Assembly: GCA_963281255.1 (NCBI GenBank)
Contig: OY725494.1
Coordinates: 372,001 to 436,000, forward strand
Source of the DNA: Aphrocallistes beatrix
Taxonomy: Eukaryota > Porifera > Hexactinellida > Sceptrulophora > Aphrocallistidae
DNA: 64,000 nucleotides
Reading direction: 5' to 3'
A program made the translations under genes and the position numbers. The notes below the pieces were generated by a model, which worked only from the letters and a program-made list of their open reading frames with translations, did not search any database and had not been told where the DNA came from. Below, piece by piece: positions 696 through 47,732 of this stretch; within the stretch, counting starts at the first letter, position 1, and every line of letters begins with the position of its first letter.

Positions 696-740
696 AAATC
701 AACCATGACATTTAGCGTTACGAATCCTGAAGTATAAATA
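696..740 (+). promoter_or_regulatory. PSE-like box and TATA box of small-RNA gene 1
   Basis: The box AAATCAACCATGACATTTAG (core ACCATGA at 702) is followed by TATAAATA at 733 and by the inferred RNA start at about 764. The core lies 62 bp, and the TATA 31 bp, upstream of the start. The same arrangement precedes the other two copies (62-64 and 30-32 bp). A PSE plus TATA is the known layout of type-3 RNA polymerase III promoters such as U6, 7SK, Y and RNase P RNA. Confidence 0.6.
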
Positions 741-763
741 CATTTTGTTGATGTATACAATTG

Positions 764-1278
764 AGTGAGCCGTTGACCCTCTCACTCGAATCAATACTGA
801 GCCGAAAGCAGTATTGAGTTCAGCTCACTTCACATTTCGATGTGTTGTGTGCCCAAGTTGTTTGTTCGTGGTGGTTAGTTCAGCAAACATAAATTGTCTT
901 GGTATTTTTGAGATTGGTTGATAATCTTTCAAATGAGTATACAAAAAAATGAATAAGGATTGATACCTTTCATTTATAATGTTGTTCTTATAAAAACGAG
1001 CAATGGAAATCGTATGGTGTAGCAGTTGGATAGATATATCCAAATGCGAATGTTTTATGCACAAGTAATGAGCAATTGGTATGATGATTTGTAATCTTGA
1101 ATCAGAAATGCGAGTTCATAAATAACGAGCATCGAGTATTTTCAGAGATAACTTTCAAATGCAAGTTCACACAGAAGTAACGAGCATATGGAGTTTGTTA
1201 GTGGTTCTAGACTTTCGAATGAGAGTTCATTATTATTCGCGGTATTTTTGAGAGGGTCTAACTTGAAGCTCACTTTTT
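764..1278 (+). ncRNA. Putative Pol III small RNA, copy 1 (long form)
   Basis: The 5' end AGTGAGCC and the 3' end GCTCACTTTTT pair (GTGAGC 765-770 with GCTCAC 1268-1273). A second 9-bp stem pairs GACCCTCTC (775-783) with GAGAGGGTC (1250-1258). A conserved hairpin follows the 5' strands: AATACTG, loop AGCCGAAAG, CAGTATT (793-815). The end is a T5 run (1274-1278), a typical Pol III terminator. This copy is about 515 nt, against 214 and 190 nt for the others, and its extra middle consists largely of a degenerate repeat. An internal T5 near 1245, and an alternative GCTCAC at 823-828, mean the true product may be shorter. Architecture (paired ends, U-tail, variable interior) resembles Y RNA or nematode sbRNA, but I cannot assign it to a known family. 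Confidence 0.5.
1041..1240 (+). repeat. Degenerate tandem repeat inside small-RNA copy 1
   Basis: Units of about 50-65 bp share AAATGCGAGTTCA and, about 15 bp later, TAACGAGCA. They begin near 1041, 1107, 1156 and 1216. Weaker relatives occur near 929 and 995. The repeat is absent from the other two copies. Confidence 0.5.
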
Positions 1279-1460
1279 GCACCTCATTCTTTTAGATTTT
1301 TTTTAGTTGTAGATAAAAGATTCCCTGGCTAATTTTTCGACCTATACTCAAAGTACCTCCAACCATAATATTGGATTATCCATTTAAAACTTATTCTGCT
1401 CAAATTCTGCTCAAAAGTTACATCTAACTTTTCAAAGCTGTATAATTTATTATTAGCACA

Positions 1461-1808
1461 CATACTTGCCAACGGTGATGCGGAAATAGTTCGACTTTTC
1501 GAAAAAGGAAATACATAGTTCGAATTGCGGATTTAGGAAATAGTTCGACTTTTTATCATACGGATTAATGGTGTTTTTTTTCGAACTATTTCCGGTTTTT
1601 GTGCGAACTATTTCCACCATACCCTTCCCAACTGTCCCGTTTTTGGCGGGACGTCCCGCTTTTTTCACTCTTCTATTGAGCTAATTTTCGAGTGTCCGGC
1701 TTTTACATGAAATGTATCCATTATATCCCGCTTTATTGGATTCCATGTATAATACGTACTTTTCTATTGCGTCCCGCTTTTATCATGGCTCAAGTTGGTA
1801 CAGTATGT
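1461..1808 (+). mobile_element. GGCGGGACGTCCCGC MITE, interrupted by another MITE
   Basis: The family begins CATACTTGCCAACTGTCCCG and ends TCATGGCTCAAGTTGGCATG; the ends are inverted repeats (CATAC.TGCCAAC). Typical copies are about 215 bp. Other copies are at 24249, 42158, 43789, 44639, 51884 and 59789. This copy carries the 1474-1623 element inside its 5' end. Confidence 0.75.
1474..1623 (+). mobile_element. GGAAATAGTTCGA hAT-like MITE, nested
   Basis: A 150-bp element built of repeated GGAAATAGTTCGA in both orientations, with ends GGTGATGCGG..CCATACC. It sits between CTTGCCAAC and CTTCCCAAC, an imperfect 8-9-bp target duplication of the host MITE. That shows it inserted into the older element. 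Confidence 0.8.
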
Positions 1809-1995
1809 ATGTATGGCTTTATTTCTCTGAATGGTTAACTAAATAACATTAAGAAAAAAACATTAATAAAACCCGAAGCAGAAATAGTCGATACTCTTTT
1901 CACCCCACCTATCTTCATCCCTTGGAACTCACTAACCCCTACTAAGGGTGGTATCGTTCCTGTTGAAATAACTTTCTTAGACTGTGATACGCAAA

Positions 1996-2270
1996 TGATC
2001 TAGAGCGCGAGACGCTCCTTTAGGCGTATGAAAATCCAGAATAATACCCAATTTATCCATATTATTATGTTATTTATCGATTTAACTGTAGAATGCCCAG
2101 CATTTTTATGACTTCACTTGCATAGAAAATGGCTGGGAGACATCCGCGATATTGGGGATACTGTGTCCTCAGTGGGCATTCTACGGTTATTAAATAATTA
2201 AGCATATGAAAATTTGGGAATTTTTGATTTGGAGCGTATCTCTGGAGGGCTATAATACCCTGGTGATATG
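1996..2270 (-). mobile_element. MITE with GGTATTATACAGCCCTCCAG end, hosting a second MITE
   Basis: The left part carries GAGCGCGAGACGCTCCTTTA and the right part ends GGAGGGCTATAATACCCTGG, the same end as copies near 17416, 26073, 26576, 26965 and 49285. The segment 2083-2190 is an inserted element (CTGTAGAATGCCCAGC..GGGCATTCTACGGTTA) that also occurs at 23481 and 23735. Confidence 0.65.
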
Positions 2271-2295
2271 TTATTCAACTTGTGTGATAGCATTG

Positions 2296-2343
2296 AAATC
2301 CGACCATGATTGCAACTGACTCATCAGTTGGCAGTATATATAT
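2296..2343 (+). promoter_or_regulatory. PSE-like box and TATA box of small-RNA gene 2
   Basis: GAAATCCGACCATGATTG (core ACCATGA at 2303) is followed by TATATATATG at 2335 and by the RNA start AGTGAGCC at 2367. The spacing of 32 bp between box and TATA, and 64 bp from box to start, matches the other copies. Confidence 0.6.
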
Positions 2344-2366
2344 GTTTGAAGTGTTGTATTACATTT

Positions 2367-2580
2367 AGTGAGCCACTGGCCCGATCCACAATACTGAGCC
2401 GAAAGCAATATTGGAAGAGTAAAAAGAGTCATTTAAAATTTTATCACGATTACGTTTAATTTTCTCAACTGAATAATAAAGTGTCTTGAATTGAATTACA
2501 TGCGATTTAATTTGAACTAATTTGGTACTAATTTACGATGGATCAACTAAGGAGAGGGTCTAACTTGAAGCTCACTTTTT
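2367..2580 (+). ncRNA. Putative Pol III small RNA, copy 2
   Basis: A candidate RNA of about 214 nt. P1 is GTGAGC (2368-2373) with GCTCAC (2570-2575). P2 is GGCCCGATCC (2378-2387) with GGAGAGGGTC (2551-2560), which pairs except for a tandem G-A/A-G step. The hairpin AATACTG..CAATATT occupies 2390-2412 with loop AGCCGAAAG conserved and one stem mismatch. The 3' module TAACTTGAAGCTCACTTTTT is identical to copy 1. The interior (about 2413-2550) is AT-rich and unlike copies 1 and 3. Confidence 0.6.
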
Positions 2581-2730
2581 GTTATATTTTAAAATTAATA
2601 AAGATATCTGCTCTTCTCTTTAATTTTAACATTAAAAAAATTGAGAATAGAGAATTATAACCAAATGTTAGCTCAGTTTTACAGATTTAGATAATATTTA
2701 GGCGCTATAATTTAAATATACCATGTTGTT

Positions 2731-2780
2731 AAAATTCAACCTTGATTTTTAGTTCTCTCTCCTATTGGTGGATAAATTTT
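2731..2780 (+). promoter_or_regulatory. PSE-like box and TATA-like box of small-RNA gene 3
   Basis: AAAATTCAACCTTGATTTTT (core ACCTTGA at 2739) is followed by GATAAATT at 2771. The RNA start is at 2801, 62 bp from the core and 30 bp from the TATA-like box. This is the same geometry as copies 1 and 2. Confidence 0.6.
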
Positions 2781-2800
2781 GTTGAAATTAATCTGTATTT

Positions 2801-2990
2801 AGTGAGCCAATAATCCTCTCTCATAATACTGAGCCGAAAGCAGTATTAGTTAGTTTACAGTGTCCAAGGAATAGGTCGCCTTTTTGGATTTCAAGAAGTC
2901 GTTGGAACGTGCGTTCTGTGGAATAGCGGGATTGGATGACTATTCTGGGGGCACTAACTGGGAGAAGGTTTTACTTGAAGCTCACTTTTT
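2801..2990 (+). ncRNA. Putative Pol III small RNA, copy 3
   Basis: A candidate RNA of about 190 nt. P1 is GTGAGC/GCTCAC (2802-2807, 2980-2985). P2 is CCTCTCTC (2815-2822) with GGGAGAAGG (2960-2968), with one bulge. Both P2 strands differ from copy 1 yet still pair. The hairpin AATACTG..CAGTATT is at 2825-2847. A third helix in the interior pairs GTTAGT with ACTAAC. One internal T5 run (in CCTTTTTGG) could cause early termination in vitro. The interior has no similarity I can see to copies 1 or 2. Confidence 0.6.
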
Positions 2991-3174: not shown

Positions 3175-3526
3175 CAAGCGGCTCCACAGGGGAAAGGGGG
3201 GGGGAGCATGCCCCCCCCTAATAGAGTTATAAAGTTGCTTTCTACTTTTTCGCTTTATTTTTATGCATCAAAATGAATGAATAATAAGATAAATTAGATC
3301 AAAATTTAGCTTCCATAGAAAGCTAGAATAGTTGTAGATCGATCTTTCAGCGTCTAATATTTGAAAATTTTCTGGGGGGCACCCAGACCCCTTATTTGCT
3401 CGCTCAGGACCCCCTCCCCCCAATCCAAAATCCTACCTACATCCTGCATTAACGCTGGTCTTCTAATTCTAGGACAACCGAATTTAAGTTAGCCCCCCTA
3501 AATTAAAAACTCTGGAGCCGCCACTG
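3175..3526. mobile_element. hAT-like element with 8-bp target duplication
   Basis: The ends are (CA)AGCGGCTCC.. and ..GGAGCCGCCACTG. GTTGGACA flanks both sides (3167-3174 and 3527-3534), a clean 8-bp duplication. The interior is C-rich and G-rich with no coding frame. Confidence 0.75.
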
Positions 3527-3746: not shown

Positions 3747-3896
3747 GGTAATGCGGAAATGGTTCGACTTTTCGAAAAAGGAAATAGTTCGAATTGCGGA
3801 TTTAGGAAATAGTTCGACTTTTTATCATTAGGATTAATGGTGGGTTTTTTTCGAACTATTTCCTTTTTTGGAAAGTCGAACTATTTCCACCATACC
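3747..3896 (+). mobile_element. GGAAATAGTTCGA hAT-like MITE
   Basis: Starts GGTAATGCGGAAATGGTTCG and ends TTTCCACCATACC. CTTTCTGT flanks it on both sides (3739-3746, 3897-3904), an exact 8-bp target duplication. Confidence 0.85.
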
Positions 3897-4143
3897 CTTT
3901 CTGTCGTGTGAAAATTATATTAGATAGTAAAAATTTGCTTCCCAAACCTAAACAGAAAATTGAAAAAAGTAACTTCTTCAGACATTAAACAGAATGATCT
4001 GCAATTGTCCAATAAAACTAATTACTTCTAAATTAAGATTAGATTACATAATAGCAAATAGTGTAGGCTCTCATTTAACTTTATAATGATTTTAATCCAG
4101 CTTATTCAAATAACAAATATCTTGCCTCGATAGTATCATTGAA

Positions 4144-13700: not shown

Positions 13701-15659
13701 ACCTGGGGGGATAAGAGCAAGCGACGGTAAGGGGGGTCTGGGGGGTGCCGCCCAGAAAAATCTTAGACACTCAAATATCGATCTACAGCTATTGTTGTTA
13801 CTTAGGGAAAAAAAAATCTAGGACTATAGTGAAATATAATTTAATCGGGATATATATATCTAGACTCAATAAACATAACTTGGGGTTTAGTTGTAGCATA
13901 TAAGTTTGTTTGAAGTCCTGCTATACCACAGCTTCCTCCAGTGCCCGGCTCCCCCCCCCCAGTCCCACACTTGGCGCCTATGGATACGATTAACCATCAA
14001 TGAGTCTATGGATTTTGCTAACTCATTTCCGGTTAAGTCATTTTGGGCGGGGAAGCCTTAGAAATGCGGTGTCCATGCTATAAATAGAATGGACTCCAGG
14101 TCATTGGCGGTTATATAATAAGCATTTGCTGACTAATTTTCAGACGAATATTTTCAATATTTGAAGTGTAAATTAAATTTTCTCAGAATTTCGCAATAAT
14201 AGTATGCTGAACTCAATGATTTGTAACTAACGTTACACCTGGTTAATCTTAATAATTATTATAAATTATTCAAACACACAGTTCTAATTTGATTGACGTC
14301 ATTTCTAAACTTTTCTCATAGACGAACCAATTGAACTAGAAGACTCACTGGATGAGTCTCGTGTTCCCACTCCACCCCTTCCAGATCTTGTGCCATTACT
14401 CCGTGAGTTTAAAACAATTCAGCCTCCTCTTGATTTCCGAGACACAGAAATGGTCAAAACGAAGGTTGTTGATGTGAAGAGTGAGCCTTGGAACTGGGTG
14501 GGCATAGTAGAAGATGGAAATGTTGAAGAAACTACACCTGTCGTATCTGAAGATGAATGTGTTGATTCTGCTGGTAAGAATGAAGAGATAGAAGGTGAGT
14601 TTGATTACTTTAACGAGTTTTTATATAAGGATACAATATATGCAGTAGATAAGATACTATGATACTTATTATGAATGCCAGTCAACTCGTACCGAATCAA
14701 CAGAAAATCCTGCTTTTGCTGTGTTCTTACAGAATTCTCATCCAATATGTTATAGAAATCGTATACAGTGGAATTCGCTTATTAGCAACTCCCTTATTAG
14801 CAACCAATCTTCAGGTCCCAGGTGAAGATTTTGTGTTAATTATGTTCGCTTATTAGCAACCATTTTATGAGCAAAACTCGAGTTGCTAATAAGCGAATTC
14901 CACTGTATTTCAATTTGGTATTTGGTACGAGTTGACTGGATCCCATACACCTATTTATTATTACACTATATTTTCCCTAACCAAGGAATTAAATATTTAG
15001 AAGATTAATGCACTGAAAGCATTAAATACCGAATAACTTCGAGAAAATGGGATTAGAAATGTACTACTAGAATGTCACGTTTTCAGTTCAAATTAATCTT
15101 ATATCTGATACAATGGATACGCTAAACCATTAAGAATATTTTTCTAGGCTTTAAATCGGCCCCAACCCATATAATCAACATTAGTTTATCCAATATCAAA
15201 AAAATGGCCCAAACTTTTTCTTCTACTGATTCAAGTAAAGTAAACTTTTACTTTTATATACCCCTAAATCCATTTATGTATACAGTAGAACCTCGTTAAT
15301 ACGAAACTCCGGATTATACGAACAGATATTTTATCCCCTAGGGTGAAAAATGCATGTAAATCACTCAGGTTAATACCAATCTCGGAATAAAACGAACAAA
15401 TTTCAACCGTCACCTGGTATTCGTATTAACGAGGTTTTACTATATGTTCTTGGGGGGTTTGACAGTCAAGTGAAAGTACTAAACTACTGATAGTTGCTAT
15501 TCTCGACTATGAGTAGCAAGAAAGGTAATACAACCTCTCTTTTCGGGTGACATCCTTAGTGCTTTCACTTCACTAAGGTTCTACAAGAGTGTTCTACAGT
15601 CCGTGGTTCGGATCTTGCAATAATCGGTGCTTTTCATCCTTACTATTAAAACTCGATTA

Positions 15660-15746
<87 letters not shown>

Positions 15747-18700
15747 GTCGAACCTGCTATAACGGCCACTCTATATAACGGTCACCTGTCTATAGCGGTC
15801 ATCAATGAACAGTCCATAATATTGACCTGTGTATAGCGGTCACCTGCTCAACGCGGCCAGCGGCCACCCTTTTGTAGTCCCTTACTGACCCTAAAACTGT
15901 GTATAACGGCCATCACCTGTCTATAACGGCCACCACCTTTTTCACCTTTTTATGTGTTTATTACAGGACATGTTACGAACGATAAACAAGTTTCATGTAA
16001 TTACTTCAAGTAATGGAACTACGTACATGTAGAAACTATGTTTCATTCTAGATAGGGTTAAGACAATCACCTGTATATAACGGTCATCTGTGTATAACGG
16101 CCAATTTTGTACAGTCCCTTGGGTGGCCGTTATATACAGGGTCCACTGTATATATATATATTACGAATTGATTGAAAAAACAGGCACAGAAAGCTGATTT
16201 TCTTTTGGCTATGGCTCCACAAATTTCTGACCTCATACCAAAATATCGACTCATCATGGAATTATTACGTCATTGTCACCTTTTTATAATTATAAATTTC
16301 AGTTTTCGACCATAACTCAGCCGTTATAAGTGATGGAAGGCTGAAATTCTAATAGAATGTGTATATAAATATTTTTCACATATGATACAACTATCATCAA
16401 AAAATGATGACTCATCACTCTGTTATGACGTCATCATTACGCATCAAAAATTTTCAAAATTCGGCCGCGCAGCGCAAGCAAGCGAAGCCCGCTTGTGCTA
16501 TATTATATTGCCATGACGCACTGATCATAGCAAGATTCGAACCAGGGACCAAGGTCTCCAGTTGCTTACAACTCGCTTAGCTAATAATCTATCCACCACT
16601 ACACTCAAGCAGATGCAATCGCTTCTAGATTTAACATTCCCATGTATTTCTATAACAAGAATTGGGAGTATTATGCAAGATTAGATCAAAGGGAGTTCTA
16701 TTTCAGTGTTAATATTTTATTACTAAGCAAATGTATCAATAATTATCTCAAGAATGACGTGTTATGTTTCATAATACGTACATTGTTGATGAAAAGTTAC
16801 AATTGAATTCGATTAGCATTTACTCGGTTAGACAGTTTAATTACTTCACAGGGAGTCAAATTTTTAAAATAGCAGAAAAATTTTGGACGAAAGTGATGTT
16901 GAAATTTGTACCTCTGTACCAAAAAGCCTCAAAAGACCCCTTTGACCCTTTTTTTATCCAAAATGCCTGCTTGGTTTAATTAACCCTATTTAGCCTTGAA
17001 GTATTTTCTATTTATAGGATGTACCCACACTTTTAGGGTTTCCCCGCCCAAAATGACTTAACCGGAAATGAGTTAGCAAAATTCCTAGTCCGAATCGGGG
17101 TTTAATAACTTAGAAGTTTTACGTTATTGAACATATCATTTTCGTCCCATCATTGTCGTGAACTTGTTTTGCTATTTAAATTTTGACTTTTTGCGGCGTA
17201 ATTTTTAACCTTAAACCGTACTCGGATGTAGTCAGTCCTCTCTAATTGTCCACTTCTGTAATTGTCCAGGTTCTCTATTTTCCACTTGCCAGAATAGGAG
17301 TACTATGTGCACACACACTTCGAATTCTCTAATTGTCCCAGGGTTCTCAAATTGTGCAGTTAGGATCCCATTACAATGGTGGACAATTAGAGTACTTAGT
17401 GAATGCATACTTTCGGCCAGAATATTATACAGCCCTCCAGAGATGCGCTCCTAGTCTCAAACCCATAAGTTTTCATACGCCTAAATCGCTAAATTTAATT
17501 ATAATATATGACGAATTGGGTAATATTCTGAATTTTCACGCTCCTAAACACTTTCGGGCTTAAAGTCATACGCCTAAAGGAGCGTCTCTGGCTCCTAGAT
17601 AAAGCCCTGCTTTCAGTCGATACGTTTCAAATAACATAACCGAGGTTTCATTGCATCATTGTCTTCAAAAATGACCATTTTGCATTTTTAGTCTGAAAAA
17701 TGACACAAGTTCAATTATGCTAGTTATGATGTAAATGAAACTCGAACCCTAAAACCAATGACTATATTCAGATATTTCACATTCTTCCGTAATGAGTGGC
17801 TAGAACTAATCACTGCCCATCATCACTACAAGACTGCCTACTCAGTTTCAATATAAGCCCTCCCAAATTCTTTAGAAATTCTTAAAATATTGACATAGAA
17901 AGATATTTCTATCTAAATGTATGACTCCTACTCAACTATACTAGTCACAATGTATGTCCACCGAAATAATTGTTCGTGGTAAAGGGACGTGCTTCAATTT
18001 AGATGAAAGGAAATCTTCCAGGTGGGAAAATGAAAGTTCCATATTTATTTGGAGGTATGTACTGTCGTTTAAGCTTAACTTTTCGTTGCTTTTTCCCGTT
18101 TGGTTTTTCTTCAAGTTTCACCTTTGCACATGACGGAGTAATTTGAACGTTCAAATCGATTTTTTGTTCAACTTTGCAAGACTCAGAAAGTTCATTTTTT
18201 TGGTGAACTTTAGTCTCTTCGATACCGTTAATGTCTGATATGATTTGATTGCTATTTTCTTGATTTGCCACCGGATTTGGAAAAATTTCGCTGTCTTCTA
18301 TGCTAGAATCCTCCGAACTTATTTCGAATTTTCCGTTTCGTTCAGAATTCTTTCTCGATGGTATAGGAGTGTTGTCGGTACAATAGTCGAGTGAGTTGAA
18401 ATTTCGGCGTTTTATGTCAACCATATGTTGTCTAAAATAACTTTCGCTCACAAAATCTCTTTTCGCACTAATAAACTCATCTGACGCACGCTTTATCGCT
18501 TCCATCCAAGAGTCGATGACCTGAGAATTGCCGCTTTTGAAGCAAAGGATTTCAGTTGGCATATTAAATTCGGATTGGGAGATTAGAAAGAATTGGTTAT
18601 GTGGGCGTTTTTCTATGATAACACTGTCTAGTAAGATAGGATGCTTCAGTAACGAAATTGTGTTGCGTTTTGTTTCTCTTGCAATTAAGATTATATCAGT

Positions 18701-20104
18701 GAATAGGTAGATGTTAACTGGTGAAAAACCGGTACTATTTTCCTGTCCAAAAGCGTTTCTCAAACTGGATAGTCTGTAAGTCATATCACGCATTTTCAAC
18801 TTACTATACTTGAATAGAATCCTTGCCATGCTGAATGGAAGACTTGGCATTGGAGCTAGCAGATCGAACTTGTAAAATTTCGAAAGAAATTTATCTTCAT
18901 GGCCGTTTTGTTCTATGTGAATCGACATTTCTATCCTATTATTAATCTGCTGAACTATTTCCATCTCTTCTTGTTCGCGTAATCTTGAATCGATTTCAGC
19001 TAAAAAACTTTGTAGTTTTTCACTGATTTTTACAAATTCCATCTTCGTATCCGGGGAAGGACAATGCGTTTTGATTGCGTTTATCAACAGTGCATATCTC
19101 ATCATATGTTGCATAGGTTCTATTAGAAAAGATCCTAATTCCTTCTTTTGTGAATATTTGTGATTTTTGCACCAGTTCAAATACTCTTTAAAAGCTAAAT
19201 TATCTTCAACATTCATTAACTGTTCTTGATATTTGGCGGCGAAAAGGCAGTGAGATAGATATTCTTCGAAGTTTTCCTCAAAGTCATCTGGGAAATACTC
19301 CACTACTTTTCCTTCTGATAATAGCGATTTCTTCCTTGCTGCTTCTTTCATACATTTTTCTGGGCATTGTTTCCAAAACTTAAGATGAGCTTGATATATC
19401 TCACTGATTCCCCCGAAAATATTTTGTGGATGTATATCAACTAAGTTTCGTTCCTTCAATAGATTTAACTGTGGTACGAAAATGTCTTGAACGATCTTCA
19501 TATTTGTTAGGAAAGTTGACTCCGTTAATATGAACTCCCAAATGGCCTCTTGTAGCTTCACTTCCTGTTTGTTTAGTGCTTGAAGGACTTCATTAGGCAC
19601 CCATTCAGCCCAGTGTGTGTATTTCATTGTAACCTCACTCAAATCAATTGTAATTTCCCCGCTTATGTTGTTGACTGGAACTACGAACTCAATTTCATCT
19701 GTTGTTTTCGTACCTCTAAGATTGAATGACGGTGGAAATTCGGTTCTCTTGTCACTATGGCTTCTTGCGAGATTTTTTTTCCCCTTCCATTGCTTGTAAT
19801 TCGCATCGTCTTTACTCCAATTGCCAACAACCGCGTTTCGACGCTGAAGACTGTCATAATTCAGCCACCTATATTCTAGAGTGTTGTTTTTGTATCCATT
19901 CGAAATTTGGTTGGAGTTGATTGGCGAATTTAATATCTCTTTCTGGTTGAGTAGAGACGATGTCATTACCTCTGAATAAGAAGATTTCTTGCTTACTTTC
20001 TCATGTCTATGATGCTTCATCTCGATAAAATTCAATTAATTTGGTTGAATTAGATATGATAATTAGATTGACATGTATGTATTTGCCTTTTAATGGAAAA
20101 TCAC

Positions 20105-31482: not shown

Positions 31483-33045
31483 ATGAAACAATTTTTGAAG
31501 ATTCTGCAAAATTCTGGTTGGATGCTAGAGGAAATCATATTTTTCTCTAAACTAGCACTCCCTCCCTCGATTGTATACCTCACTGAAGGACTCCAAATGA
31601 AAATAAGCAACGTGTTCATTGGTAGGAATTCCGGTGGTAACATAGAAAATATGTTGAGTGCTTTATTTCTCGGTCAAGTTGTGGTAAGTATGACTTCATA
31701 TGCTTTGACTGAAGGACTTTCCATCTACATCAATATCCTATGTTCTCAAGCATACGGAGCTAAACAGTATAAGTTAGTAGGTCTGTATTTCTATAGAGCT
31801 CTCTTCATGGCAGCTCTCACATTCTTTCCTCTCTCTTCACTCTTCATCAGTATACGTCCTATCGTGTACTCAATTACACAAGACTGGGAACTAGCTTATC
31901 ATGCAGGTAGCTACACTTCTGTTTTGTGCATCGGCTATCCTGGTTATGCGTATTTCAAAACTTCCCTACGCTTTCTCCAAGCACAGAATATTGTCTGGCC
32001 TCCATTACTCTATATTATTCTAGGAAACATCTTGAATGGCATTCTACAATACGTTTTAATATGTCACTACCACGCTGGTATAGCTGGGGCGGCAGCTGGT
32101 TACGTCATCAGTCTCTATTTCATTGCACTATTATTATTTGCACATATCAAACTTACTCGTGTTCACATTGTGACATCTACCAATTGGACTTGTGCCATGA
32201 TTGATGAATGGTTCCATTCAGCTAGTTACACATTTTTTCCAATGATACAAAACTTGGCTTCTAACTCATCTTCAAGTTTAGTTCCACTCATATTGCTAGG
32301 ATTCATTTTTGATGATACATCTCAACTTGCTATCTACACAATACAAATATCTCTATGGGTTGTGTTCGCGTTATGGGCTATGGGATTTTCAAGCGCTATC
32401 ACAGTTCGTATAGGAAATTTGCTTGGTGCATATGAATATAAGAGGGCATTTCGAGCTGCTATGTTCTCTATTGTTTATGGCGAAACAATTGCATTAATTC
32501 TAACAGCATTATTGTTCTTTCTAAGCGGACCATTCAGTCATCTTTTTACAACAGATTTTGATTTTGCACAGAAGTTATCCTTCAACATAAAAGGAATGTG
32601 TTTCATTGTGCTGTGTGACCACCAAATATTCACGCAGGGGATATTGAATGGCTGTTGCATGCAAGGAACTCAAGCCTTAGTTAAATTTGTGTCTAGAACA
32701 GTTTTGGGCATAACTCTAGGTATTATTATCACAAGTTTGGTTGAATGGAAAGCACTGGGTATCTTCTTAGCAAACGGTATAGCTTGCACTGTTGCATTTG
32801 TAATAGGAATGGCGATCATATTGACACGTAATTGGAAAGACGTTGCATTAAATGTGAGTAAAAATACAACAAGTATACATAAAGAAGGGAAGTTGAAAGA
32901 GAAACATCGATTCTGTAGCAGGATTACTCGCAAACTGTGTAGGAGTGCTATCTGGGAATCGAAAATATTTATCAAATGTCGCTATTGTATTGTGATTCTG
33001 TTAGGTGGTTGTTTATTTTTTGGTGTAGCTTTGTGTCAATCCTAG
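31483..33045 (+). CDS. MATE-family transporter (SLC47-like)
   Basis: A 520-residue intronless ORF with about twelve membrane segments plus a possible thirteenth at the C-terminus. It shows the MATE order: an N-half with LSIYINILCSQAYGAKQY (the family's ...ETLCGQAYGA-like motif after TM2), LRFLQAQNIVWPPL, a cytosolic middle loop, then the C-half with FSSAITVRIGNLLGA. MATE proteins export organic cations and other small molecules by H+ or Na+ exchange, usually at the plasma membrane. The common Glu/Gln of the SQ motif is here Cys-Ser-Gln (ILCSQAYG). It converges with the adhesion GPCR gene, about 930 bp apart. Confidence 0.88.
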   Translation: MKQFLKILQNSGWMLEEIIFFSKLALPPSIVYLTEGLQMKISNVFIGRNSGGNIENMLSALFLGQVVVSMTSYALTEGLSIYINILCSQAYGAKQYKLVGLYFYRALFMAALTFFPLSSLFISIRPIVYSITQDWELAYHAGSYTSVLCIGYPGYAYFKTSLRFLQAQNIVWPPLLYIILGNILNGILQYVLICHYHAGIAGAAAGYVISLYFIALLLFAHIKLTRVHIVTSTNWTCAMIDEWFHSASYTFFPMIQNLASNSSSSLVPLILLGFIFDDTSQLAIYTIQISLWVVFALWAMGFSSAITVRIGNLLGAYEYKRAFRAAMFSIVYGETIALILTALLFFLSGPFSHLFTTDFDFAQKLSFNIKGMCFIVLCDHQIFTQGILNGCCMQGTQALVKFVSRTVLGITLGIIITSLVEWKALGIFLANGIACTVAFVIGMAIILTRNWKDVALNVSKNTTSIHKEGKLKEKHRFCSRITRKLCRSAIWESKIFIKCRYCIVILLGGCLFFGVALCQS

Positions 33046-33976: not shown

Positions 33977-36628
33977 TCACTTATCATCTTCATCATTGCT
34001 AGGATTAGTTGGAAGAGTATTGGATACCTTGCTGCTTTGAGAAGAAAGTGTGTTGAGTTTAACAAATTTCTTCATCGCATAGGGATCCCTCCATTTGAAC
34101 ACATACTCAATGACTTCCTCATTTCTCGCCACATGTGCAAAGAAGAAGAACACACCTTGAAGTCCAATAAATATGATGAAAAGGTACCCGAAAGCGACTG
34201 TTGCCTCATTAATGTAAATAACCCCAACAATCCACGGAAGAGCTAAGAGTGGTAGGAGAACGAGAGAACTGATGATAATGGATCGTACACGGGTACTGGT
34301 CTCATCACGTTTCTTAACTCGATATATGACATAGAGTGTGTAGATGTAGAACAGGAAGTTGGTGGGTAATAGCATCAACATTGGAAGCACGAAGGAGAGC
34401 AGTTTAAGATGATTCGTGTTAGTTAGAATACAACCGACTTCAGGATTCACATAGGATGTATTGGTGTGATGGGTGGTATGAGTGAGTGTAACCGTAATGA
34501 CTAACACTGGTATTGCTAGTGTCCATCCGAGTGGGATTAGGACGGGCCAAAGCCTTTGACTTTTGTTCCAGAACTTGATCTTCCAAACAATTGCGATGCC
34601 TTCACATAAACTCCAACTGAACACTGTAAGCCAGAGGTAGTGTTGAATAGCGGCTACCACTGTACATGCAATCAAGTTTCCCGATGCGACACTCGAAAAA
34701 AGGAAAACGAGAAGTCCCAGCAGTAATGCAATGCAAAGGTTGATATGAATAATGAAGATTGAGTCTTGATTTTTGAAAGGATTTTTGTTTGAATTCCGAG
34801 TTCGTATGTAAAGTATAGCATAACAAGTGAGACTTGCTAAAAGTGCCAGAACGGACATGCTGCACACGATGTAGGAGAGAACTCTCTGTATTGTGTTATT
34901 AACTCCTTTTGGTTCATGTGAAGATAAGAGTAGTGCGAAACTAGTCAGGTGAGTAGTTGTACACGTGATCTTGAAAGTTCCGTCAGAATGCTGTCCTATC
35001 TTAGTTGTTACACCCTGCATTGACCATGTATTGGAGGTTAAGTTCCAGAAAGCGCATTTAACAGATGATGGAGAAGAAGAATTTTCCTTGTTTGGGAGGG
35101 ATCGTAGTGAGAACTGGATTTGAATAGGACTTGAACCCAGGAAAGTATCTAGGTTTGCATTTCCACATATTTTTGAGTTAAGAGATAGCACATCACTCTC
35201 CAATGTTGTGTTAGTGCTGCCTTCCTTGTAATCTGAATTTTCTTTCTCTAACCTAGCATATGGAAGTATTGATTTGACAGTTGGGAAATGGAGCGAAGTG
35301 AAGAAGCTTCCTTTACATTTGTTGTTGATTTGCTCTATTATTTTCTGACTAATGCGTACTTCAGTTTTGAAGTGGTTTGTGTCATTGATGGGAATATTTG
35401 GATACTGTATTTCAATGGGGGAAGTTGTTCCTATAAAGTTATATGTAAGAGCAACGTTTTGATCTGTGATTGCTTCGATTGTCTGGTTCTCATTCTTTGT
35501 CCGATTTAGAGAAATTGACATCTGTTCTAAAGTACCAACCAAGGCATTCACAGTTGTCCTGTTTCCAAATGCATTATCTTTCTCTGCTAATACCCAACTT
35601 TCCCGATTGGCCATTTCTAATAACAGAGAGGCTGTTTCTATCGCAATTTGAGGCGTTTTCATTGCTGCAGTTGCCACATCCTGAGGAGATTCTTTCATTT
35701 GTGCCTCAATATAATTGGTTACGAGTGTCTCCAATCCTTTGTTCACAATGATAATTTCAAATGGATACAACTTTGAAGTGTTTTCTTTAATCACTTGATC
35801 GAGGCTATTTTGGAGTGAGACCAGGTTCGATTCATTTTGCATCAATTCCACTTTGAGATTTTTGATTCCTTCGCTTAGACATTCGGAATAATCGGCTTCT
35901 TCCCACTTTGAATTTTCAGAACATTTTCTTCTTGCAATACCCACAAACCGTGAGTGTATCTTATCACAGTCTAGTATTGAGGTCTCATTTGATCTCTGTT
36001 CTGACCATTCTACATTCAGGTCAATGTACCTGTCCCTTGTTGTTAAGCAGTATTGAAATTCACAACATAGTCCATATCTCCCTTCACTACAGCTACATAC
36101 TGAATTGGATCCGTTATTTATTATATTTCCATACTTCTCACAAGTAGCGAAGTCTTGACACGATTGGCATCCGGGCTTATAGGGTTGATGCTCTGAATTT
36201 GGTGGACATGAACAGTTGTAGCCACCAACATAGTTTGTACATATATTATTCCCACACATTGGGACTGACTTTCTCTCGCAATCCACTGGAGTCTGTGTAC
36301 AAGCATCATTAAAACCGCAATATCCAAATCCTTCAACGTATCCTGGATTGCATAAATCCTCTATCTCAGCCACACTGCATTCATCGATGTCCACACACGT
36401 TGTAGTGCTATATTGGGCTTTTTTACCAACCGGACAGAAACAGAATTCTCTTACGTGACCAGGAGATATGTCAACACATTTATATAGACTACCTTCAACA
36501 CAAGGCTTCTGCTCGCCAGCATTTTTTAATGCACTACAACTAGTAATAGTTGCAGTGACATGTGAATTTAAGATGAAGAGGTATGCTAGTAAAATGGTGA
36601 AAACGTTTGCATAGCTTTTACAGGCCAT
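33977..36628 (-). CDS. Adhesion GPCR with EGF-like, HRM-like and GAIN/GPS regions
   Basis: An 883-residue intronless ORF. A signal peptide (about 1-26) is followed by Cys-rich EGF-like modules (DIDECSVAEIEDLC at about 80 is a calcium-binding EGF start; second module about 125-150). An HRM-like segment follows (about 207-252, SILDCDKIHSRF..RRKCSENSKW). A GAIN-like region leads to the GPS at about 525-568 and the 7-TM bundle (about 583-840), then a short tail. The cleavage triplet HLT is present (THLTSFALLL). Only two of the four usual GPS cysteines are there: CAFW and the first of the CxC pair; the GC and the second Cys are replaced by GV and Thr. Class B2 receptors sense adhesion or mechanical cues and signal through G proteins; the ligand cannot be told. 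Confidence 0.9.
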   Translation of the reverse strand: MACKSYANVFTILLAYLFILNSHVTATITSCSALKNAGEQKPCVEGSLYKCVDISPGHVREFCFCPVGKKAQYSTTTCVDIDECSVAEIEDLCNPGYVEGFGYCGFNDACTQTPVDCERKSVPMCGNNICTNYVGGYNCSCPPNSEHQPYKPGCQSCQDFATCEKYGNIINNGSNSVCSCSEGRYGLCCEFQYCLTTRDRYIDLNVEWSEQRSNETSILDCDKIHSRFVGIARRKCSENSKWEEADYSECLSEGIKNLKVELMQNESNLVSLQNSLDQVIKENTSKLYPFEIIIVNKGLETLVTNYIEAQMKESPQDVATAAMKTPQIAIETASLLLEMANRESWVLAEKDNAFGNRTTVNALVGTLEQMSISLNRTKNENQTIEAITDQNVALTYNFIGTTSPIEIQYPNIPINDTNHFKTEVRISQKIIEQINNKCKGSFFTSLHFPTVKSILPYARLEKENSDYKEGSTNTTLESDVLSLNSKICGNANLDTFLGSSPIQIQFSLRSLPNKENSSSPSSVKCAFWNLTSNTWSMQGVTTKIGQHSDGTFKITCTTTHLTSFALLLSSHEPKGVNNTIQRVLSYIVCSMSVLALLASLTCYAILYIRTRNSNKNPFKNQDSIFIIHINLCIALLLGLLVFLFSSVASGNLIACTVVAAIQHYLWLTVFSWSLCEGIAIVWKIKFWNKSQRLWPVLIPLGWTLAIPVLVITVTLTHTTHHTNTSYVNPEVGCILTNTNHLKLLSFVLPMLMLLPTNFLFYIYTLYVIYRVKKRDETSTRVRSIIISSLVLLPLLALPWIVGVIYINEATVAFGYLFIIFIGLQGVFFFFAHVARNEEVIEYVFKWRDPYAMKKFVKLNTLSSQSSKVSNTLPTNPSNDEDDK

Positions 36629-37440
36629 ATTTTTGAATTTTTGAACTTTTGATTTGAATTGAGATGCCCATTAAACATTTTCAATACTATTTATACTGTA
36701 CTACTAAATAGCTTCGACCTATATTCATAATGTTATACAACTCTGTATAATCAAACTAAATTATTTTTTCCGTAAATTTTACCTTCATAATCGAGTTTAT
36801 CTATTTTATTTTTCCGTAAATTTACCTTTATAATCAAGTTTATCTATTTTTCCTTAAATTTGAACTCAAACGACTAAATATACATGTTGTGCAATGTACA
36901 TCATACACTGTTTTAATATACACGTAATATTAAGTAATAATAATAATAATTACACTATTCTTCTTTTCTGTATGATATATTGTTCAACGGAGAAATTATC
37001 ATATACTCTAATATGTACTCGTAGTATAGTCTACAGAATAATCATAACATCATACAGAGTTCATATTCATAACTGACCCAGTGGCATTCTTGCATTTACG
37101 TAAATCTATACTTTGTATTGTAAATGATGTTGCCTATTACTATTCGAAACCACTAAATGATAGCAATGTGCGCCTAAGCCACAAAATTACAATGTTAGCA
37201 ATCATCCACATAGTATGTACCTAAATATGCCGTTTTGGCATCCTGGATTTATTTAAAAAATCCGTTTTTATCTCAAATACTAATAATCAAGATAATATTG
37301 TTGTTATGAACCCATTTAATCGAGCAGTGCAGGCTAACTTGAATATTAATGGAATAGTTTTTGCATAATAGATCGAGGTAAAAGATGTGCCATATTGGTT
37401 TCTATGGTTTTACTTTTTAGCATACGGCATTCTTCTGTAT

Positions 37441-38357: not shown

Positions 38358-40088
38358 TCACATTTCTTCTTTTTTCACTCCTTCAGTCATACTAATTGTT
38401 TCTAGCACACCCATTCCAACTGTTTCTTTAGCTTTTTTCCGTTCTTTATAGTCATGGGTAATCTTAATAACTTCAAAAACAACATACAGTATGGCCAGTC
38501 CAATTAACATCGCAAACCACAATCCCCATATATAACTAGGCGCCAAAATTAAAAAGAACCCAAGACTGATATTCACAATGGCGAGAATCAATGCAATTCT
38601 TCCAGAATAAACATGGAAGTAGGACCATATGATTCTCCTGAGCTTAGGTTTTTCGCCCTCTTTGATATGAGGACGAAAAAAGCCATTTATCGGTTGTTGA
38701 ACGCCAATAACCATAATGAGGATACCTAAAGCCCCGTGCACGAACAAAGGAATGCTAGTCTGAAAAAAACCTAAGATAAATCCTATCACAGCTAACGCTA
38801 ACCCAGTCACTTGGAAGATTCGATGGAGATGGAACCAAAGAGGAGCTTTGAAACGCAGGTAGCGAGCTATAAAAGCGCCTGCCTGAAGAAAAACGCCCCA
38901 ACCCAAGAACATTAGAATTCCATGCATCATTGGGATCGAGAAAAAGTGGTTTGGACAACCGATATCATAATTTTCTACATAACTGCCTTGAATACTCCAA
39001 AGATCTCCTAATCGCTCTTCTGTGTAGAAATCTTCACCACCGAACATGTAAGCTTTACCATTTCCAGTGGTCATTGAGTGTTTTTCTCTCCAAATAGGAT
39101 AATCGCCACTTAAAGTCAATGCACTACGTCTTGTCCATTTGCTACTGGTTTCTAAGTCAAGAACGTCAATTTCGTCAGGGAGATACGGTCCACTAGCTAC
39201 TGATGGTACATTAAGGCCTCTTGGGTTTCCTGCGAACAATACGGCGGTATTGTTACCAAGATAACTCATAGCGACAAAGAATCGTGGACTAATGCATTCA
39301 GGAAGACGTTCCCATACACCCTGTGTAAAGTCAATACGCCATGAGTCATAGCTAGGACAAGGCCCGCCAGCCCCAAACGAAGGCGAGTTGAGACAACCGC
39401 CGTACATTACCAGCACAGTTGGACTTATCATTGTACCAGCAGCGAGGCACCTTGGGTGTGGTCCAGACACGACGTATGAGCTATAAGGCCCAGCTGCTTG
39501 CTGCCAACGTTTCGCTGTATTTGAGCGTAATTCTGTTACATTCATGACGAACGTATCAGAGGTTCTCCCTGCTCTAGCGAACCCATGAGACACCGAGAAT
39601 AGATCTCCTTCATGATGGATACCGCCAACAGCCCCATAGCGGACTGAAGGTCTTCCGCCCTCAATGTCTACTTCATTCCAACCACCAGACCCGTTCAAAT
39701 CGTAGTACCAGATATCATTGTAATGAGTTCTTCCTGACCCTTCACCAGTTGCGATAATGAATAGGCCTTCTTTTTCATAGACACCGGAGACCATAGAGAA
39801 TCTACCAGGTGGGATATTGGTGGTAAATGGTCTGTTCCAATTACAGGTTTCCGAACTATTCCCCATCTGTTGGAGAGTGCATATCCACAGGGCATTGGTA
39901 GTCCCCCCAGCCCCACGTCCGCCGAATAAGATTATTTGGTTTCTAGCAGCGTAAAACCCCAACCCGGGTAATTCTAAAGGGGGAGGAGATGGCGAGTTGG
40001 AAGTAACTTGGCGCCATGTTAGAGGGTCCGAGTTTGATGTAAGAATGCTCACAGAGAGTAGTAATATCCCAAACAAATGGTGAACCAT
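38358..40088 (-). CDS. Kelch beta-propeller fused to cytochrome b561
   Basis: A 576-residue intronless ORF. A signal peptide (about 1-20) precedes kelch-type repeats to about residue 370 (IILFGGRG, IATGEGSG, VLVMYGGC, VLFAGNPRG, AYMFGGED mark the blade strands). Then come five or six membrane segments of a cytochrome b561 core. Histidines fall at the places that hold the two hemes in that family: H389 (MMHGILMFLGW), H420 or H422 (LWFHLHRIF), H451 (FVHGALG) and H492 (YFHVYSGR). The b561 core passes electrons across membranes, often from ascorbate. The usual animal partner domains are DOMON or reeler, so a kelch propeller is unusual. The propeller should be luminal or extracellular. What it binds is unknown. 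Confidence 0.85.
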   Translation of the reverse strand: MVHHLFGILLLSVSILTSNSDPLTWRQVTSNSPSPPPLELPGLGFYAARNQIILFGGRGAGGTTNALWICTLQQMGNSSETCNWNRPFTTNIPPGRFSMVSGVYEKEGLFIIATGEGSGRTHYNDIWYYDLNGSGGWNEVDIEGGRPSVRYGAVGGIHHEGDLFSVSHGFARAGRTSDTFVMNVTELRSNTAKRWQQAAGPYSSYVVSGPHPRCLAAGTMISPTVLVMYGGCLNSPSFGAGGPCPSYDSWRIDFTQGVWERLPECISPRFFVAMSYLGNNTAVLFAGNPRGLNVPSVASGPYLPDEIDVLDLETSSKWTRRSALTLSGDYPIWREKHSMTTGNGKAYMFGGEDFYTEERLGDLWSIQGSYVENYDIGCPNHFFSIPMMHGILMFLGWGVFLQAGAFIARYLRFKAPLWFHLHRIFQVTGLALAVIGFILGFFQTSIPLFVHGALGILIMVIGVQQPINGFFRPHIKEGEKPKLRRIIWSYFHVYSGRIALILAIVNISLGFFLILAPSYIWGLWFAMLIGLAILYVVFEVIKITHDYKERKKAKETVGMGVLETISMTEGVKKEEM

Positions 40089-41228
40089 ATTGCCTTTGAA
40101 TTGTGCAATGTGATTCTAAGATTGAATGAATCCAAGCCTTTTATTGAACTGATAAGGGTAATTAAGAATAAACCTATTTAATTCCAGTTTAAGTTGCAAA
40201 ACTAGATGGTTATTTCTTCCAAGATCTCAACATGTAGCTTGTAGGCCTCTTATCTACCTACTAAATTGGATACTGTCGCATAACTTCTGTTTGTGTGAAT
40301 AGATACTGGGAAACAATGATTTTCCAATTAACAGTTTGTATTCGTTGCAATTCTTTTTTTGTACTTTTTGCCTAGTAGTCGATTCAGTATAATAATATAC
40401 CTCCTACAACACTATTTACTTCGTCAACCAAAAGTTGGGTTGAAACATTGTCATTATTGCATAATTATGAAGATATTTAACATGTCTAGAATGCGAGAAA
40501 TAAGATGTGGATATGTACTACACAAAGTTTAACATTGTTGTATCAGCATACATGCCAACCGTCCCTTTTTGTTACTATCATATACCATGTAATATATGTA
40601 TATGATATATGATATTCAATGGTTCAGAGGATACACTCACCCCGGGGGATCGACGGCACTCCGACACATGGGCGGCGCCAGGGGGGTGCACCACACCTCC
40701 CTGCATCCCCCTGCACCCACTGTTTCACCCCTGACTGAGCACCAGGGGAAAATACTTATATAGTACGTATATTATGTCACAGTTAAAACGTCAAATTCGC
40801 TATTTTGTATATATAACACCTGGAAATTTCAGGCAATTTCCATCTGTTAATGCACCCCCTGCACTTCCCTGTTCAGGAAGCTTGCGCTGCCCATGCTCCC
40901 GACACCAGCTATAAACTACGGCGCCCAATTATTGCCTGAGCCCACAGCCCAAGCGACAGGGATTCCAGAACTGACGGTTTTTGCCAACCATTTACTTGCT
41001 ACTTTATTTTTTCCTCCATTTTAGGTTTAGTTTTACTCACTCACTACTTTTCTTTTACTTGCTACTTATTTTTTTTCAGAATCAAAATTTTCTTAATTTA
41101 ACCGTGTCCAGTTCCTCAAGGTGTCTGGGAAATTTACTTGCTACTTTTTTTTGCTCGCTATCCAGAATATTTATCTACTACCTTTTATTTTCCTCCAAAA
41201 AGATTTGTTAGTAATTATTGTTTAGAAG
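40089..41228. other. Shared upstream region of kelch-b561 and NUDT1
   Basis: A divergent spacer of about 1.1 kb. It contains a GC-rich element (about 40668-40893, ends CATGGGCGGCGCCAGG and TTGCGCTGCCCATG). 40990-41150 holds three imperfect TTTACTTGCTACTT units in a T-rich stretch just upstream of NUDT1. Confidence 0.55.
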
Positions 41229-45111: not shown

Positions 45112-45256
45112 TATATATATTTACAATAAACACCTTGAAATAGTCCAATCCCAAAAGTTTCTCAATTAAATAACCTCTATTTAAAAAAAATCATGTACAA
45201 CTCCAGTGACGTATCTCTCAGTATTATAGAAATCTAGCACACACACCCCACTCCTG

Positions 45257-47377
45257 ATGGCTGAGAATACAGAGGACAGTATTCAATCTGGAGAGACGGA
45301 CTCAGCACCCCCTCAAGCCACTTCCAAACCACCCACGACGTCTCGACACCCTGACCCAGCACAAATGGACATCGTACAAGCCACCCAATACGGCTACCTC
45401 ATCCGTTGTGCTGACATTGTTGAGAAACAGAATATTGATGTGACGAAAGGTGATGAAGAAGGAATCACACTTCTACACTGGGCATCCATCAACAACCGTG
45501 TTGACATAGCTGAGTACTACATACACAAAGGTGCTGATATCAACGCGACTGGTGGGCAATTAAAGGCCTCGCCGTTACATTGGGCGACACGTGAAGGACA
45601 TCTGAAAATGGTTGTACAGCTGATTAAATACGGCGCCAACCCGGAAATGCCTGATATTGAGGGGAAAACTTGTCTTCATGTAGCTGCACAGTTTTCGTTT
45701 ATTGACATAATCGCTTATTTGGGTGCTCATAACCCTGAACTTTTGCAGTCAAAAGATACAAACGGACAAACACCATTGATGTTAGGCGTTTCGCGCTCTT
45801 TTGGCTATGACCCCACACGCTTACTGATCAAATTGGGCTCACCCGTCAATGAGAAAGATTCCCATGGCAACACTGCCCTACACCATGCCATCCGGTTAGC
45901 AAACCACCTCGCTATAGATGTGTTGTTAGAAATGGGCAAAGCTTCGTTGCATGTTTACAATGATGAGAATCAGAATGCACTGGATTATGCTTTTCATTTC
46001 AAGCATTTGCCAGTTATCGATGGTCTGCAGAAGCGTATTAAACTGAATGACAAGTCAACTGTGTTCAAACGTATGACGAAAAATTACACTTTCGCTAAGA
46101 ACTGTATGAATGTCCTTCCTTTCTTCTTCATAGGAGCTGTTGGCTATGCAGCGAACATTTCAACTCAACTCTTACTCTTTTTCGCTCTTTTTTTCTTTAT
46201 TGTTGGCTTTTCTTGCCTCGTTTCGAGTTTTCTATTACCCACAATTTACCCGCGTTTCCCATACTTTGTTAGTTTCGTTGCTGCTTACATCTTCTACTCG
46301 TATGGGACAACTTTCTACTTTGGATTCGCGAATGGAATCGCGACAACTTTACTCTGGCAGATCCAGATTTGGACAACTTCAGTTTTTCTCATTTTCTCGT
46401 TCTACAAATCCGCTACCTCCTCACCAGGCGTTATAAAACCTTCCAAGAGCGAATCTTTAGCTGAAATTATTAAACTCTGCGAAGCCAATGATTTTAAATA
46501 TTCCAATTTCTGTACAACCTGCCTGATCCGTAAGCCATTACGCTCCAAGCATTGCCCAGTCTGCAACCACTGTGTGGCAAAATTCGACCATCATTGCCCT
46601 TGGGTTGATAACTGTATCGGTGTATCGAACCATCATTACTTCATAACTTTCCTGCTGAGTGGTAACGTAATGTTGTTCAACCTGTTCTATAATGGCGTGC
46701 GGTTTTTCTTACAGGAATGTGAGGGAGTGAGAAACGCAGTTGGGTATTTTCCAACGATTCATGAAGCAGGGCTTTGCTCGCCTTGGGCATTTTGGATGAT
46801 TCTTCTGACGTCAATAATGTTTATTTGGGTGACGTTCCTGCTTATTGGGCAAGTTTTCTCGAATATCATTGTCGGCCAAACGACAAATGAGTATATGAAC
46901 CGTCACAAGTATTCTCTCCGTCAGAATTATGCTGAAGCCACTACTTATTACTATTCCGGGATAATCGGCAATATTGTTGACATGTACGGCATTACTTTTT
47001 GCCCAATTGTGAAACCGAGGAACATAGACTACTTCACACTATACGAGTTACCGGAAGAAGCAAGGAGAATCCGCGGGAATACCGAAGGTTTACCGGCAAA
47101 CCATCCAGCAAAACGTGGCCAACAAATGGCCGCAGGTGGGCCAGGTGGCGGCCTTCGATTGTCAGAGGTTTTACAAGACGAGAAATTACGTGCTAACATG
47201 ATCAATGCGCTTAAAACAAACCCAAAAGTGAAAGCGAATTTCAGTAATGAACTGGTACAGAAGCCGGAATTGAGGGATAAAATGTCCCGGATTCTCCGTG
47301 ATGAACCGGAACTCCATGAACAGTTACTTGGGACCAAATATTCAATCGATGAACGGAGTGAGACGGTGCAGAAGTGA
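45257..47377 (+). CDS. Ankyrin-repeat palmitoyltransferase, ZDHHC17/13 (HIP14)-like
   Basis: A 706-residue intronless ORF. Ankyrin repeats span about 50-270 ([54 protein letters not shown]). Four membrane segments precede the Cys-rich catalytic domain ([20 protein letters not shown] to [13 protein letters not shown]); the DHHC is residues 444-447, with Cys447 as the acyl carrier. Two more membrane segments follow. HIP14 enzymes attach palmitate to proteins at the Golgi and choose substrates through the ankyrin domain. The C-terminus, after about residue 620, adds roughly 80 residues: a Gly-rich linker (AAGGPGGG) and a helical segment with [20 protein letters not shown] that recalls STI1 repeats. 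I know of no such tail in the usual 620-630-residue enzyme. Confidence 0.92.
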
Positions 47378-47732
47378 TAAGAATCTTCCACACAATTACT
47401 ATAAAATATTTTATATAAGGATTAGATTTGAATTCCAATCTGTTTATTAGTATTAGAAAGTCTCAGTTTGGATACTATCATTTATGAGTAATGACACACA
47501 TTAGATTATAACATTATTCTATCTTGTATTGTACTATATCTGAGTGTTTTAATTTTGTCCTTTCCTTAAATAATATAATTAAGTATTTGTGAATTTATGA
47601 CTTTAACCTCCGTTGCCCCAGGAATGTGTCGCGTCATTTCCGGTTTAAGCCATTTTGGGCGTGGAAGCCATAAAAATTCGGGGTATTTACTATAAATAGA
47701 AAAAACCCAAGCCATCCGAGGGTTTTAAAACG

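Follow-up and report, generated by a model that had tools for sequence, protein, structure and literature searches.

Three times near the start of one stretch of sponge DNA the same layout recurs, each time with equal edges and a different middle, and the question is what kind of gene, if any, is built in this way. The stretch, 64,000 nucleotides (nt) of the glass sponge Aphrocallistes beatrix (contig OY725494.1, forward-strand positions 372,001 to 436,000; hereafter the window, C8:372001-436000), was described in a sequence-only reading as carrying, at 764, 2367 and 2801, a three-copy family of putative RNA polymerase III (Pol III) small RNAs. The explanation we consider probable is that these are structured small-RNA genes with U6-type external Pol III promoters, whose frame would serve to bind one shared partner and leave the interior free to evolve. 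The frame comprises a terminal stem that closes the RNA, a second stem, a hairpin whose loop core (GAGMMDAAAGC) is nearly invariant and, in some members, a further conserved word (motif 2, TTGANNTWGNA, or UUGANNUWGNA in RNA); the predicted RNA starts with AGTGAGCC and ends in a 3' module with a T-run, and upstream lie a box resembling a proximal sequence element (PSE) and a TATA-like box.

A dispersed family with paired ends and unrelated interiors

The family is real and larger than had been proposed: the genome of this single species (100.5 Mb, 28 contigs) holds at least 22 loci, on ten contigs and in places clustered, 21 of which (M01-M21) were fully analysed, with predicted RNAs of 165-515 nt. 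Membership was assigned on the joint presence of the 5' domain, the 3' module, a pairing second stem and the promoter boxes. The 22nd locus, a second copy on C17, has the 5' domain and 3' strands that pair by eye, lacks the T-run, and was counted and excluded from all statistics. The number is a lower bound, because members altered at both ends would escape the search patterns. A first DNA query returned two close relatives; later searches used patterns of the loop core, the 3' module, the 5' end with the loop core, and the loop core with motif 2. The last of these, searched exactly, found 12 matches in the whole genome, all 12 in the family, against two for the reversed pattern. The 3' module gave 23 matches and its reversed control five, and a second search for the 5' end with the loop core gave 23 against nine. 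Within the window, the shared 3' module ACTTGAAGCTCACTTTTT has three matches, all exact where up to three mismatches were allowed (0.16 expected), and GAGCCGAAAGC likewise three, all exact where one mismatch was allowed (0.46 expected; three were reached in 1 of 100 shuffles).

The ends of these RNAs pair, and the pairing has outlived the letters. The terminal stem mostly reads (A)GUGAGC/GCUCAC(U); both sides have changed and still pair in M14 (GGGUGAGC/GCUCACCC), M15 (GCGAG/CUCGC), M06 (AUGAGC/GCUCAU) and M21 (GUGUGAG/CUCACAC), and M18 pairs through a G-U. Most members share an asymmetry, 5' CC facing 3' GAH, and at position 9 most have A or G opposite U, M20 having G opposite C (by eye). The second stem differs in sequence between most members while pairing within each gene: across the 21 members the native strands reach -14.84 kcal/mol and swapped strands -7.43, with 0 of 10,000 permutations as good, a result that recurred (0 of 10,000) in 16 non-redundant members, chosen from the 20 known at that stage by omitting M04, M05, M08 and M10, and 17 of the 21 are individually below p = 0.05. 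The compensatory change that had been claimed for this stem is thus strong family-wide, whereas the three window copies offered a weak case for it, copies 1 and 2 having identical 3' strands and copy 3 a p of 0.07.

The hairpin follows the same rule. Its arms are paired at 118 of 126 positions, against a swapped mean of 70.9 (0 of 10,000), and in a pair count over 20 members (17 distinct rows), from which M13 was omitted on account of 2 extra nt in its loop, 94.1% of cells are paired and 37 are doubly changed; the covariation score is 0.793, compared with 0.219 under shuffling and no more than 0.272 under sliding. Each of these three measures was reached in 0 of 500 shuffles, which ignore relatedness. 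In the window the hairpin is indeed kept in all three copies, with one unpaired position in copy 2 (5 of 6 arm pairs). Ends that go on pairing while their letters change suggest that the fold of the RNA is of importance to the sponge. Motif 2 follows the loop core by 10-12 nt in 11 of the 21 members, and also in the second C17 copy; it is absent from M01-M06, M18 and M20, and near versions are seen by eye in M08 and M19. In M11 it reads TGAGGTAGTAGG, which we take to be identical to the start of let-7, a match that is probably due to chance because other members vary there. Copy 1 (window 821-830), M04 and M05 carry a second GCTCACTT right after the hairpin, which could pair with the 5' end instead of the distal 3' end and so form a switch between short and long closure.

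Inside this frame the resemblance ends. Interiors measure 65-417 nt, and an all-against-all blastn of the 21 (E 0.01) returned, between genes, two paralog pairs (M07/M08 and M09/M10) and short matches in M01/M05 (25 nt) and M16/M17 (16 nt), with no others; the three window interiors are, as had been said, mutually unrelated at this threshold. Among M01, M04 and M05 the 5' domains are 86-91% identical, the 3' ends 81-92% and the upstream regions 73-79%; their interiors are 39-50% identical, within 2 points of one shuffle each. In the pair at C17:668900-669480 and C17:678300-678800, 171 of 173 bases agree across the promoter, the 5' domain and motif 2; beyond this point the two are abruptly unrelated, yet the 3' regions of both are complementary to the common second stem (by eye). 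Such a pair could be a recent instance of interiors being swapped wholesale on a fixed RNA chassis that the conserved loop and motif would hold, the fast-evolving interiors serving as guides or decoys in a private glass-sponge ribonucleoprotein (RNP) system, a scenario that we hold tentatively and somewhat doubt.

Dispersal and inverted-repeat ends might instead be those of mobile elements akin to short interspersed nuclear elements (SINEs) or miniature inverted-repeat transposable elements (MITEs), with which the family shares short inverted terminal repeats and scattered copies. Yet the RNA ends show no target-site duplication (longest shared word, 25 nt each side, mean 4.67 against 4.86 shuffled), the interiors are unrelated to one another, those of M01 and M04 (2 of 21 tested) are single copy in the genome at E 0.01, bar M04's own inverted repeat, in a search that skips common words, the promoter is conserved outside the RNA, and the arms change in pairs, so that a transposon origin appears scarcely credible.

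Folding of the interiors bears on another alternative, namely that the genes are Pol III-driven precursors whose interior hairpins are cut by Dicer- or Drosha-like enzymes. Six of the 21 interiors (M04, M06, M13, M17, M18, M19) fold with z below -2, M04 and M18 contain long inverted repeats, and microRNA (miRNA) precursor models match inside M18 (29.3 bits, cut-off 70, E 0.06) and M04 (27.9 bits, cut-off 79, E 0.23). These matches are, however, far under their cut-offs, and the stronger ones fall outside the RNAs; the other 15 interiors have z of -2 or higher, and the conserved hairpin loop, motif 2 and the second stem would be left unexplained. We regard precursors as very unlikely. At the other loci Rfam gave only sub-threshold miRNA-model matches, and in the window nothing at its cut-offs. 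The interior of M13 holds three tandem hairpins, CTGGGTTG...CAANCTGG, whose arms differ yet pair, a hint that selection acts on the RNA within one interior or more.

Promoter geometry, terminators and the choice of polymerase

The upstream box starts mostly at -61 to -64 (overlapping matches span -60 to -67) and the TATA-like box at about -30 (-27 to -34, depending on the overlapping match chosen). A pattern recovers the former in 19 of the 21 members, M16 and M19 carrying ACCACA at -62 and -61, outside the pattern; with a leave-one-out matrix the best upstream site lies within -72 to -58 in 19 of 21 as well, M03 and M19 having it elsewhere. In the window both boxes of each copy stand where the sequence-only reading had put them (Table 1), and two of the tests by which it proposed to be refuted speak for it, the comparison with U6 and the look for target-site duplications at the RNA ends. 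The genome yielded one U6 gene (48 of 13004 candidates scored), with CCCATAAC at -63 and TATA at -31, its start being assumed at the G preceding TATAGC. The spacing of PSE and TATA in the family matches that of this U6, the arrangement of type-3 Pol III genes. At the other end, the T-run is exactly T5 in 19 of the 21 and T5 or longer in 20. Taken together, the sequence evidence supports a U6-type Pol III family whose ends pair, with compensatory change, around interiors that are free, from which we infer transcription.

Several results weigh against this explanation. The main 5' pattern (5' end with loop core) matched 22 times forward and 20 times in the reversed control, so that it is by itself no proof, and membership stands on the other features. 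The second stem is individually non-significant in 4 of 21 members (M03, M08, M09, M10), and coarser measures of the hairpin are unexceptional (pairs with double change 6 against 4.8 shuffled; further pair types 13 against 11.4). The best matrix site of U6, although exactly placed at -63 relative to the assumed start, scores a weak 4.6, the next best 4.3. M19 ends in an interrupted T-run, TTATT. Internal runs of T4 or more are not significantly depleted (28 against 31.3 expected in the 21 members), and seven runs of T5 or more (9.4 expected) lie inside M01, M03, M09, M14 and M21, among them two T5 in M01, which is window copy 1, and a T8 in M21. Such runs should stop Pol III early and hence count against its transcribing the family; either Pol III tolerates them, or expression is poor at some loci, or another polymerase acts in some cases.

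The same internal runs would suit PSE-driven transcripts of the Pol II small nuclear RNA type, in which the terminal T-run would be part of a 3' box. Against this stand the TATA box near -30, as in the U6 of this genome, the T5 immediately after the stem in 19 of 21 members, and Sm-like words that occur in only 7 of 21 and at scattered positions; Pol II is accordingly a highly improbable source. A spliced-leader reading was also tried and not adopted; a trans-spliced leader of about 37 bp is reported for Aphrocallistes vastus (PMC10282587), and a crude word search found donor-like words in 3 of the 21 members, beside the Sm-like words just given.

Loci, rejected candidates and surroundings of the window copies

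Starts, ends and lengths of the three window copies agree with those first proposed (Table 1).

Table 1. Positions of the window copies with their elements (window coordinates) and of the other family members (contig and approximate position)
Feature	Position	Strand	Remark
Copy 1 PSE-like box ACCATGACA, -62	702..710	+	U6 of this genome at -63
Copy 1 TATA box, -31	733..738	+	
Copy 1 (M01) predicted RNA	764..1278	+	515 nt
Copy 1 terminal stem, 5' strand AGTGAGC	764..770	+	pairs with 1268-1274
Copy 1 second stem, 5' strand GACCCTCTC	775..783	+	pairs with 1250-1258; p 0.001
Copy 1 hairpin	793..815	+	loop core GAGCCGAAAGC at 799-809
Copy 1 3' module	1250..1278	+	second-stem strand, linker with ACTTGAA, GCTCACT, T-run
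Copy 2 PSE-like box ACCATGATT, -64	2303..2311	+	
Copy 2 TATA box, -32	2335..2340	+	
Copy 2 (M02) predicted RNA	2367..2580	+	214 nt
Copy 2 hairpin	2390..2412	+	loop core at 2396-2406
Copy 2 3' module	2552..2580	+	
Copy 3 PSE-like box ACCTTGATT, -62	2739..2747	+	
Copy 3 TATA-like box GATAAAT, -30	2771..2777	+	
Copy 3 (M03) predicted RNA	2801..2990	+	190 nt
Copy 3 hairpin	2825..2847	+	loop core at 2831-2841
Copy 3 3' module	2962..2990	+	
M04	C8:1009.9k		
M05	C3:431k		
M06	C14:3932k		
M07	C18:1112k		
M08	C18:1206k		
M09	C3:774k		
M10	C3:5946k		
M11	C3:6305k		
M12	C3:6310k		
M13	C20:1534k		
M14	C1:163k		
M15	C2:246k		
M16	C3:6348k		
M17	C3:6349k		
M18	C6:4050k		
M19	C14:3929k		
M20	C15:2364k		
M21	C17:669k		
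Second C17 copy	C17:678k		22nd locus

The searches also returned candidates that were rejected. The loop core alone matched 12 times (reversed control seven), at six members and at six loci without a 3' module (C3:3841894, C3:6264454, C7:2631169, C7:3141206, C14:3574717, C15:2403406). The main 5' pattern hit 20 members among its 22 matches, the other two, C9:4844049 and C11:4686664, lacking the 3' module; the second 5' pattern, outside which M06 and M15 fall, found 20 members among its 23, the remainder being C7:431999 and C10:4036459, rejected from the matched letters alone, and C19:848902, rejected on reading. The 23 matches of the 3' module include 13 members and nine rejected loci, six of them look-alike ends of another repeat. 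The remaining match, an orphan 3' end at C3:780178, much like that of M09 and about 6 kb from it, has no 5' domain in the stretch read and is a broken copy. With three mismatches the 3' module matched 168 times in the genome and its reversed control 335 times; about 100 of the 168 were listed and 30 cut out for reading. Weak model matches at window positions 47433 and 15552 were rejected after reading. A repeat at window 15540-15600 (minus strand), C11:4686664 and C19:848902 forms a hairpin around GTGARNNNAAAGCACTAA that resembles the family loop core, without the 3' module.

Around the copies, a MITE-like inverted-repeat element (GGAAATAGTTCGACTTT / CGAACTATTTCCACCATACC) occupies window 1474-1626, between copies 1 and 2, and 3747-3899, beyond copy 3. 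Downstream of copy 3, window 3176-3310 shares CGGCTCCAC...AAAGTTGCTTTCTACTTTTT...TTAGATCAAAATT by eye with the region downstream of M21, perhaps as a dispersed repeat. Further along, long animal genes run as single open frames of 520-897 amino acids at 17999-20035, 31483-33045, 33977-36670, 38358-40115 and 45230-47377, named as RhoGEF, MATE, an adhesion G protein-coupled receptor, Kelch-b561 and ZDHHC17, so that the genome seems intron-poor in the window. For the palmitoyltransferase frame (45230-47374) the nearest named protein is Oopsacas minuta LOD99_5728, at 75% identity, which by itself places the window in a glass sponge; among the 120 proteins listed, its own record aside, three other relatives reach 77%, 77% and 58%, the rest at most 40%.

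A candidate ribonucleoprotein among known scaffolds

Under the explanation preferred here, the RNA would close by its terminal stem and then by the second stem, free in sequence and nonetheless paired, just inside which the hairpin would present the loop core, with motif 2 further in for 11 of the 21 members. Loop core and motif 2 would most likely be the platform for one common protein, La or a La-related protein on the U-tail would yield a stable RNP, and the interior would most likely equip every RNP with a cargo, partner or target of its own. Were these genes transcribed, they would make up a Pol III RNA family of many genes, in an animal class that branched early, with neither an Rfam entry nor a report found: among the titles and abstract openings listed, a coverage outside which subscription journals and preprints fall, there was no earlier description, and the main text of the Oopsacas genome paper (PMC10280926) contains none of six non-coding-RNA terms. 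A covarying frame around unrelated interiors would also offer a way to ask how new RNA function enters an old RNP.

Close in architecture are the vertebrate Y RNAs and the nematode stem-bulge RNAs (sbRNAs), Pol III transcripts which, according to PMC4726728, have paired ends, a U-tail, an asymmetric stem, a variable loop domain and several genes, at least 18 in the case of the sbRNAs of Caenorhabditis elegans. The family, whose Pol III transcription is put forward here from its promoters, could thus consist of true and very diverged homologues, with Ro60 on the terminal stem, La on the U-tail and the interior as the Y "loop domain". The genome does hold a Ro60 (TROVE) gene at C11:118688-120009 (best piece 153 bits), and a weaker second TROVE match at C14:490558-491636. 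The terminal stem is of about 7 bp, and the cytosine at position 8, present in 21 of 21, faces GAA, GAU or GAC in most members, where the same source gives the Ro60 site as a helix of seven bp with a bulged C that faces a bulge of three nt; pairing of this C with the G and a 2-nt bulge would fit equally well. Against homology, the RNAs are longer (84-112 nt for Y RNAs, according to PMC8973356), a search of 20 loci with E allowed up to 1 gave no match to a Y RNA model of Rfam, and the UUAUC loop motif occurs in 7 of 21 members at scattered positions. The second stem, moreover, diverges in sequence while pairing. For the conserved internal hairpin loop and motif 2 we know of no counterpart in Y RNAs. 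Of the likeness first noted, the architecture therefore stands and a Y RNA match in Rfam is lacking, and descent from Y RNAs or sbRNAs we deem unlikely.

With the type-3 Pol III genes U6 and 7SK the family has in common the PSE near -63, the TATA near -31 (as in this genome's U6) and the terminal T-run, while the RNA is unrelated to theirs and the family consists of many divergent genes; the 7SK model (RF00100) found no match in the genome, where its controls were likewise silent, and none in the family loci. The Class I RNAs of dictyostelids, as PMC7919456 presents them, are a one-lineage multi-gene family with a short terminal stem, a conserved motif and a variable remainder, with a T-run downstream of many members, as here, and with an upstream element roughly 60 nt ahead of the start, a likeness to our box (mostly -61 to -64) in position only. 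In Dictyostelium discoideum they measure 42-65 nt and have an 11-nt motif next to the 5' stem (same source); the sponge RNAs, at 165-515 nt, have in its place the variable and covarying second stem, and they differ too in that their conserved core lies in a more internal hairpin, their genes have a TATA box and their host is an animal. By analogy, the family would work like the Y RNAs or sbRNAs and like the Class I RNAs, and it fits neither definition; and the idea of a scaffold plus free loop, drawn from Y RNAs and Class I RNAs, becomes testable in a third, apparently independent lineage.

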